From: Candidatus Roseilinea mizusawaensis
GTDB lineage: Bacteria; Chloroflexota; Anaerolineae; J036; Brachytrichaceae
Assembly (NCBI GenBank): GCA_016841965.1
Contig: JAEANN010000059.1
Coordinates: 1-64,000, forward strand
Direction: 5' to 3'
Length of the DNA stretch: 64,000 bases
Shown here one piece after another: positions 61,914 to 64,000 of this stretch. Within the stretch, counting starts at the first letter, position 1, and every line of letters begins with the position of its first letter. The notes under the pieces were generated by a model. That model saw only the letters and a list, made by a program, of their open reading frames with translations. It made no database searches and was not told the origin of the DNA. The translations under genes and the position numbers were made by a program.

Positions 61914-62483
61914 TCACTGCGCCAGGGCTGGCGATGTTTCGTGCGCTGCGCCCTGGCGTATCTTTGTCTCCAGCGCCGCCTGAACCAGCAAGCGGTGTGT
62001 ATAGCGCCTTTCGACCTCGCTCCACAGCGCGCACGTGAGCAATAGCAATTGTGTCCCGTCTCGACGGTAAATAGAGCGCACCTCACGGTTGTGCAACAGG
62101 CGTTGTCCCTCAACTCGGTAGCGCCAGGCGCGCCCATCCTGAGTGCGCACCATCACCAGATCATTCCGGCGCAAGACACCCAAACCGTAAAACGGGCCAC
62201 GCACATCGCCTTCCAACGTCACATGGCCGGCCAATACCATGGCCAGCGCATCTCCCGGCCAGCGACCGGTGGTTTGCAACAGGCCCACTTCGCGCGCGCC
62301 AAGCCGGCTCTCATCCCACGCCCCATTGACGATGGGCAGCAGCACCACCGGCGCATCGCGCAGCCCAAGCGCCGGGATGCTCAACGCCGCCGGCGGCGAT
62401 GGAGCAACAGCGCCCACCCCCGGCCACGCCAGCATCAGCCCGGCCAGCGCGCGCAATGCCTCGCGCCTGCTGACCGGCCTCAT
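61914..62483 (-). CDS. Sortase family transpeptidase
   Basis: The 189-residue protein has the sortase triad: His87 in LAGHVTL, Cys151 in LLLTCA and Arg164 in YTHRLLVQA. The N-terminus reads VSRREALRALAGLMLAW, a signal-anchor that also resembles a twin-arginine (Tat) signal. The start ATG at 62483 overlaps the stop of the upstream LPGTG protein by 4 bp (ATGA); the longer frame upstream is an out-of-frame reading of that gene. It should attach or cross-link the upstream substrate at the cell surface. The substrate-recognition loop is too divergent to name a sortase class with confidence. Confidence 0.88.
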   Translation of the reverse strand: MRPVSRREALRALAGLMLAWPGVGAVAPSPPAALSIPALGLRDAPVVLLPIVNGAWDESRLGAREVGLLQTTGRWPGDALAMVLAGHVTLEGDVRGPFYGLGVLRRNDLVMVRTQDGRAWRYRVEGQRLLHNREVRSIYRRDGTQLLLLTCALWSEVERRYTHRLLVQAALETKIRQGAAHETSPALAQ

Positions 62484-63190
62484 CGCCGCCCGGTGCCCGG
62501 CAACTCGGCCGGCACAATCAAGACCGTGACCGCGTTCGATTGTGTCACGCCCTGGCTGCTGGTGAGCACCGCAGTGTTCAGCACGTTCGCCGGCGGCTGG
62601 GCGCGCTCGTTCACCCGCGTGGTGATGGTGAAAACCACCCGCTCGCCCGGCCCCATCGTCCCCAGGGCCAGCGTCCAAGTGCGCGAGCCGGCGTCGAAGC
62701 TGACATTCCCGCGCGGCACGTTGGCGCTCAGATAATCCACCAGAGGCGAGATCGCATCCCCCACCACGACGTTGTCAATGCTCACCGGGTTGGGGTTGAT
62801 CACCTCGATGGTGAACACCACCACATCGCCGGGCCGCGCCTGCTCCAGGTTGACTTGCTTGATGATATACGGATCAAACAGCGCAGGCAGCGGCGTCGCG
62901 GTAGGCACGGCCGGCGGCGGCTGGCTCGTCGGCGGCGTCGCCGTTGGCGTTGGCGTGTGGGTCGGCGTGGGGGTAGGGGTGGGGGTCTCGGTCGGCGTGG
63001 GGGTCTCGGTCGGTGTAGGTGTGTTGGTTGGCGTCGGCGTAGGCGTGTCGGTCGGCGTGGGCGTTTCGGTAAAGCCGGCCGGCGCCTGCGGCATAGTCGG
63101 CGTTCGCGGTGCAACCAGCAAACTCATCACCGCCATCACCGCCAACAGGATCAATCCCAGGGCGAGCGAAGCGAGAGGGCGTTTCATCAT
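62480..63190 (-). CDS. Thr/Pro-rich DUF11-domain surface protein ending in LPGTG
   Basis: This 236-residue protein has an N-terminal signal or anchor (LASLALGLILLAVMAVMSLLV) and a 60-residue Thr-Pro-Glu stalk (40-100). One DUF11/CARDB-type beta domain follows (YIIKQVNLEQARPGDVVVFTIEV, ISPLVDYL, WTLALGTMGPGERVVFTI). The last residues are LPGTGRR (230-236). LPGTG fits a sortase sorting motif, but the usual hydrophobic helix between the motif and the basic end is missing. It is coupled to the sortase gene and 14 nt after the protease gene. It may be a stalk or pilus-like subunit. Confidence 0.85.
   Translation of the reverse strand: MMKRPLASLALGLILLAVMAVMSLLVAPRTPTMPQAPAGFTETPTPTDTPTPTPTNTPTPTETPTPTETPTPTPTPTHTPTPTATPPTSQPPPAVPTATPLPALFDPYIIKQVNLEQARPGDVVVFTIEVINPNPVSIDNVVVGDAISPLVDYLSANVPRGNVSFDAGSRTWTLALGTMGPGERVVFTITTRVNERAQPPANVLNTAVLTSSQGVTQSNAVTVLIVPAELPGTGRR
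62927..63070. repeat. Thr-Pro codon repeat in the DUF11 gene
   Basis: About 48 codons encode an alternating TP/TE/TN/TD stalk with a 6-bp-based near-repeat at DNA level. Such stretches are prone to change in copy number and act as rigid, often O-glycosylated linkers. Confidence 0.7.
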
Positions 63191-63204: not shown

Positions 63205-64000
63205 TCAGTGTCTTGTGAGGGGTAGATACAGCGCCTGAGCGGCCCAGCGCGAGCCGGGCGCCAGCGCGGGGTCGCCGAGCAAGGTGTAAGTGTCGAGCAA
63301 ATCGAGGTATAGGCCGCCGCCCGCCAGCGCCAGCTTGCCGGCCAGGGTTGCATCGCCCAGCCGGCTGCCGGCCAGCCAGGCGTCGGTCAGACTCTGCCCC
63401 AGCACATCGTGACCGGCGCTGAGGGTGAGGCCGGTCGCGCCCCAGGTGGCCACTGCGCCGCGCCCATCGGCGCGCAGCAGCGTCTCATCCAACGCATCTT
63501 GCAGCTCATGAAAGCGCGCGGTGTAACAGGTCAGGCCGGCCACAACCGGCAGCGCAGCGCGAGGCGGCAGCGTCGCCACATCGTCGCGGTGGAACAAGCG
63601 CTCGGCGGCCCACTGGCGCGGTGACGCATGGCCAGAGTAAAGCAGCAAACGGGCCAGGTTCCATTGGCTCAGCAATGCGGCGCGCGTCGCGGTGAACGAC
63701 GCGCTGCCGGTGAGCGTCGCCGTCACAGCCACATACGGCGCGGCGACGTGCGCGGCCAGCGCATTGGCCTTGGCCGGGAAGTTTCCGGCCAGATCGGCGT
63801 CATCTGCTGCGATCACCACGCGCCGATCCGCCGGCGTCAGCAGCGCCTCTTCGTAGGCCAGCGTCTTGCTCACAAGCTGCCGCGTCTCGGTCAGCGTGTT
63901 CACCGGCCAGCGCCCTAGCGCGATGTCGGGCAGGGCGTCCTCCCCGTCCACCGTCACAAAGCGATTGTCGGCCGCCGTCTCGCCCAAGAACGGATCCACC
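63205..64000 (-). CDS. Gingipain-type (C25) cysteine peptidase, C-terminal part (cut by window edge)
   Basis: The open frame runs off the right end of the window; 264 residues of the C-terminal part are seen. They contain LPDIALGRWPVNTLTE, a common segment in C25 catalytic domains. The catalytic His is in LLYSGHASPRQW and the catalytic Cys in VAGLTCYTARF. The last part (WGATGLTLSAGHDVLGQSL, YTLLGDPALA) is typical of the family's end. The apparent GTG at the edge is not a real start. It precedes the LPGTG protein by 14 nt, so it may process surface proteins together with the sortase. Export signals would lie outside the window. Confidence 0.85.
   Translation of the reverse strand, partial: VDPFLGETAADNRFVTVDGEDALPDIALGRWPVNTLTETRQLVSKTLAYEEALLTPADRRVVIAADDADLAGNFPAKANALAAHVAAPYVAVTATLTGSASFTATRAALLSQWNLARLLLYSGHASPRQWAAERLFHRDDVATLPPRAALPVVAGLTCYTARFHELQDALDETLLRADGRGAVATWGATGLTLSAGHDVLGQSLTDAWLAGSRLGDATLAGKLALAGGGLYLDLLDTYTLLGDPALAPGSRWAAQALYLPLTRH

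Follow-up and report, generated by a model that had tools for sequence, protein, structure and literature searches.

Sortase signals are taught to include, as a defining feature, a membrane helix at the C-terminus, and computational searches for sortase substrates make use of it. In the published description of sortase substrates (PMC10924467), the motif lies ahead of a transmembrane helix at the C-terminus, an accepted view that counts against reading a protein without such a tail as a substrate. A survey of fibrillar adhesins sought LPxTG only in the last 50 residues of the proteins (PMC8286594), so that a form in which the motif is fused to a sortase would be missed. Self-cleaving srtA-LPETG-target fusions exist as an engineered tool, for which self-cleavage was demonstrated (PMC2901362). 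In the open-access literature searched, a scope outside which most subscription journals fall, no description of natural LPxTG-sortase fusions or of tailless substrates was found.

The window, that is, the whole stretch of 64,000 nucleotides analysed here, contains a pair of overlapping genes encoding a small DUF11 protein and a sortase (Table 1). The small DUF11 protein ends in ...VPAELPGTGRR-stop, and no hydrophobic stretch is present in the window sequence between LPGTG and the stop codon. The ATG of the sortase gene is read within the ATGA shared by both genes. These two features had been pointed out in the original prediction, and both hold beyond the window. As in the canonical LPxTG signal, the motif of the window protein is followed by basic residues and is accompanied by an exported sortase with the His, Cys, and Arg residues, and the adjacency of substrate and sortase genes is that of canonical pilus islands. 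Unlike in the canonical signal, no hydrophobic helix separates the motif from the basic end, the protein terminates with the motif, and the anchor, if any, would be N-terminal. The C25 peptidase gene of the same locus extends past the window, its full open reading frame corresponding to 892 amino acids (L071 3206-5884).

Table 1. Coordinates of the features of the substrate-sortase locus within the window
Feature	Position	Strand	Basis
Small DUF11 protein, 236 aa, putative tailless LPxTG sortase substrate	62480-63190	-	PF01345 E 2.3e-13; 12 other genomes/records
DUF11 domain of substrate, residues 109-213	62552-62866	-	Pfam
N-terminal hydrophobic helix of substrate, residues 6-27, probable signal-anchor	63110-63175	-	hydropathy
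LPGTGRR at substrate C-terminus, stop codon immediately after	62483-62503	-	sequence; LP[G/E/R]TGRR-stop in 13/13
ATGA overlap of sortase start and substrate stop	62480-62483	-	sequence
Sortase, 189 aa	61914-62483	-	PF04203 E 2.4e-15; His87, Cys151, Arg164 conserved
Sortase N-terminus MRPVSRREALRALAGLMLAWPGVGAVA, resembling a twin-arginine signal rather than an ordinary membrane helix	62403-62483	-	SRRxx motif
C25 (gingipain-like) peptidase, 3' part	63205-64000	-	PF01364 E 7.3e-40

The search for related loci covered 28 genomes of the same family plus one record from another collection, and resulted in 13 homologous sequences, window included, all of them from Roseilinea/Thermoflexales-type Chloroflexota. 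Each of the 13 carries LP[G/E/R]TG near the C-terminus together with an Arg-Arg-stop basic end, and in each the stop codon lies two residues past LPxTG, with no hydrophobic helix after the motif. The ATGA overlap is identical in 12 of the 13 sequences. The same tailless LPxTG-sortase overlap, proposed originally as something to be looked for in related genomes, is thus present in these relatives, and homologues with a normal hydrophobic tail, which had been named as contrary evidence, were absent from the whole set. Since the tailless end is kept across the homologues, it is due neither to chance nor to a sequencing error, and a local mutation as the cause of the missing tail is ruled out as well.

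Substrate and sortase co-occur strictly: the sortase clade was found in 12 of the 28 family genomes, the DUF11 partner in those same 12, and neither of them in the other 16 (Fisher p 3e-8, the genomes not being independent of each other). The pattern LPxTG[RS][RS]-stop gave 12 true matches, one per genome, and four unrelated ones; the matches in G002, G009, and G024 and the second one in G027 were rejected as chance occurrences inside or across unrelated genes. The operon is also conserved, with the order giant DUF11 protein, C25 peptidase, substrate, and sortase wherever the contig was long enough, G013 excepted. In this genome, the substrate has been relocated and the sortase is on another contig, behind a C25 gene. 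LPGTGRR-stop is retained there despite the sortase being elsewhere, indicating that selection acts on the motif and the end as such. In the window's genome, nothing matched the canonical tailed-anchor Pfam model over cut-off, a result of poor power given the shortness of the model. Owing to their small length, the Gram-positive anchor models PF00746 and TIGR01167 are of little use in deciding on the presence of tailed substrates, with few matches barely over cut-off and with sortase-free control genomes matching too.

A recombination boundary was observed within the window sortase gene at about position 62180. From this point toward the operon start, the locus matches two genomes from a different genus with ~95% identity along 13.5 kb (L071 2181-15707 compared with L074 of G026 and L076 of G017); the first 85 residues of the sortase are 95-100% identical, and the remainder only 51%. 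As a separate observation, the giant DUF11 protein and the C25 peptidase end in short C-termini of a shared type, such as LWLPVVMRAE, ALYLPLTRH, and LYLPLVVK (L071 5895-17507 and 3206-5884; L075, L077, L079, and L165). The same type is also found on a C25 peptidase located beside a sortase in another family (G127), and the LWLPVVMRAE-type C-terminus could be a separate sorting signal of the phylum.

Regarding the enzyme, the window sortase matched PF04203 with 56.8 bits (curated cut-off, 26.6), and the residues H87, C151, and R164 are invariant in its clade (14-row alignment), leaving the active-site residues intact. The best structural matches to its predicted model (mean pLDDT 75) were all sortases, with values of Z 14.7 and rmsd 3.5 over 128 aligned residues for the top match to solved sortases. 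None of the NCBIfam sortase class models C, D, E, F, and GN gave a value over cut-off, the best being class F with 40.8 bits vs 166; the window sortase is weakly similar to classes F, E, and GN, far below their cut-offs, and belongs to a clade of its own. A second stand-alone sortase is encoded in the same genome (G000:C31:102498-102917, L001); it is ordinary-looking, with an N-terminal membrane helix, and substrates for it were not found.

The N-terminus of the window sortase had been proposed to supply the membrane helix that the substrate lacks, an idea that does not hold in general. The 19-residue hydropathy maximum of this region is 1.48 in the window and 0.4-1.2 in the tested relatives of the same type, corresponding to a short Tat-like stretch, and the window model predicts an N-terminal helix for residues 6-18 only, with low confidence. 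As most sortase N-termini are so weakly hydrophobic, they are, as a rule, not the missing helix. The type of export signal varies within the family, being twin-arginine-like in 9 of 13 sequences and Sec-like in G001, G004, G013, and G016. TatC is present in the window's genome and in each family genome checked.

The original prediction had also left room for retention of the substrate in another way, and this alternative is backed by a conserved hydrophobic helix of about 21 residues at the substrate N-terminus. In the window, the uncharged run of this helix comprises 22 residues, with a 19-residue Kyte-Doolittle maximum of 2.82. Runs of 20-22 residues were observed in 10 of the 11 complete substrate N-termini (16 residues in G016), and hydropathy values of 2.3-2.8 in all 11. 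A hydrophobic run of 20-22 residues exceeds the usual core of a signal peptide, and its presence in 10 of 11 N-termini favours an uncleaved anchor as judged from sequence. We infer that the helix acts as a signal-anchor, with the membrane at the N-terminus and LPxTGRR at the free end of the protein; alternatively, signal peptidase may cut after the helix. Directly ahead of the Pro/Thr stalk, each of the 11 complete N-termini has the heptapeptide GFTETPT (window 63056-63076), and in 9 of these its spacing from the end of the helix is constant at 11 residues.

On balance, we slightly favour a reading in which the small DUF11 protein is a sortase substrate built the other way round, anchored N-terminally, tailless, processed by the downstream sortase, and finally tethered at both ends. 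The protein would be held in the membrane by its N-terminal, not its C-terminal, helix, followed by a Pro/Thr-rich stalk, one DUF11 domain, and LPxTGRR at the outer free end. The sortase encoded by the overlapping gene would be exported through its own Tat-like or Sec-like signal, cut the Thr-Gly bond of the motif with release of only Gly-Arg-Arg, and link the Thr to an amino group. The resulting tether would sit in the membrane at one end, and its other end would be bonded to wall material or to a protein of the cell surface, the giant DUF11 protein encoded in this operon being a putative acceptor. Within this scheme, we infer the non-cleavage of the helix, the cleavage of the motif, and the identity of the acceptor. 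From the sequences compared, the tailless substrate and its sortase look like a genuine, little-noticed route of attaching proteins to the cell surface.

Sortase domains with a motif of their own in the same chain were found in other members of the class. Among 396 Anaerolineae genomes, 60 gave sortase matches with E 1e-15 or better, and the strongest of them sit in open frames that are hundreds to thousands of codons long; a search across 400 genomes from the phylum gave strong matches in Anaerolineae only. In G053, a single-contig genome, two large proteins end in LPATGF, a linker, and a sortase, each within one open reading frame. The 35 distinct fused C-termini that we read, which come from 28 genomes, show the pattern LPxTGFAPGxVT, in which T-G-F is invariant, with about 20 residues from the motif to the first core strand of the model. 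No membrane helix was found after the motif in these 35 C-termini (best 19-residue hydropathy, 0.4-1.6). An assembly artefact is ruled out for the fusions by their presence in the single-contig genomes G053, G265, and G351. A third form, in one open reading frame as well, carries LPTTG or LPVTG, then hydrophobic helices with basic residues between them, and then the sortase; it was observed at L154-L157 (G130, G336, G288, and G183), in reading frames of up to ~4,400 codons belonging to two unrelated lineages. An unfused sortase in G071 was considered as another split pair and rejected, being a degenerate relative with no LPxTG upstream.

The window pair, with two open reading frames, differs from the single-frame LPxTGF-sortase fusions and is separated from them in the phylogenetic tree: split-pair sortases form one clade (100/100), tailless fusions another (100/98), and helix-bearing fusions two unrelated pairs. 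An origin of the split pair among the fused proteins was considered and set aside, the clades being separate, and, given this topology, sortases seem to have become coupled to their own substrates on several occasions in Anaerolineae.

An AlphaFold model of a fused C-terminus reached a mean pLDDT of 94.7, with ~96 over residues 11-30, which hold LPATGF; given this high value, the motif is confidently placed in the model against its own sortase domain. Residues 2-184 of the model align with class C sortases (142-168 residues aligned), and residues ~34-184 with class A and E sortases (~130-137 aligned), the N-terminal segment finding its counterpart mainly in sortases with an N-terminus of the lid type. 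The model suggests that LPxTGF sits where class C (pilin) sortases keep their lid: the segment before the core can be aligned from the lid-bearing N-terminus, as in SrtC, but bears the LPxTGF substrate motif instead of the lid, with no tail helix. Like the engineered srtA-LPETG-target proteins, the natural fusions hold enzyme and cleavage site in one chain; their order is target-LPxTGF-sortase, however, and the window pair consists of two chains. A broader reading, which we put forward only tentatively, would be that Anaerolineae substrates each bring their own sortase, either in the same chain with the motif over the active site or as an overlapping pair with a tailless, N-anchored substrate, and that the fused sortase is single-use, its domain being the leaving group.

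These fused proteins bear on a possible but rather unlikely interpretation of the window pair, namely that of a self-contained two-gene module in which translational coupling gives a dedicated 1:1 pair and the sortase serves essentially its partner alone. The resemblance to the one-chain proteins, with their invariant T-G-F, their lack of a helix after the motif, and their confidently modelled motif segment, would fit such a module, as would the order LPxTG, membrane helices, and sortase in one open reading frame in the two further lineages; because of these forms, substrate-sortase coupling appears to have arisen repeatedly. On the other hand, the separate clades give no sign of one form deriving from the other, the split sortase carries its own signal, and G013 has retained both genes in the absence of coupling.

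A lower probability corresponds to an unprocessed motif, in which case the protein would be a DUF11 stalk anchored in the membrane, and its uncleaved C-terminus would bind to the sortase or to some other partner. The lack of a tail would agree with this, since a free C-terminal peptide could serve as a docking signal, but the motif is constant at L, P, T, and G and variable at x (G, E, or R), as is usual for sortase sites, and the adjoining sortase has an intact catalytic triad. Head-to-tail polymerisation, in which the helix would be removed and the Gly of GFTETPT would act as acceptor to join subunits through LPxT-GFTE, is very improbable: the conservation of GFTETPT and the match of the LPxT-GF product to the invariant LPxTGF of the fused family speak for it, whereas the Gly is preceded by A, V, or I, residues poorly suited to signal peptidase, and the substrate helix resembles an uncleaved anchor.

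The least credible option is the ribosomal shift at the overlap put forward in the original prediction, which would fuse substrate and sortase and place a hydrophobic helix after LPGTG: despite the four-base overlap, the genuine LPxTG-sortase gene fusions of relatives, and a one-base difference in G017 that brings most of the DUF11 gene into the sortase frame, no slippery sequence was seen at the overlap, the Arg-Arg codons differ (CGG CGA, CGC AGA, CGC CGA, and CGA CGC) while the residues are constant, sortase-frame stops occur in several relatives as near as four codons upstream of the sortase ATG, the sortase N-terminus is too weakly hydrophobic in most relatives, and both genes are unlinked in G013. 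The difference in G017 (L005, L035), near residue 195 of the DUF11 gene, creates a 406-codon open reading frame with the sortase and without LPxTG, and this single frame is probably an assembly error. The fusion idea is wrong at this locus and, in spirit, right for other members of Anaerolineae.

If an N-terminally anchored, tailless substrate processed by its neighbouring sortase is indeed conserved in these bacteria, along with exoproteins that carry their own sortase, searches based on the tail would miss whole classes of surface proteins, and the question would be raised of how sorting proceeds without a tail. The self-carried sortases would, in turn, be natural self-ligating modules. The surface proteins of Chloroflexota have been little studied, and the phylum is a place where tailless sorting may be put to the test.
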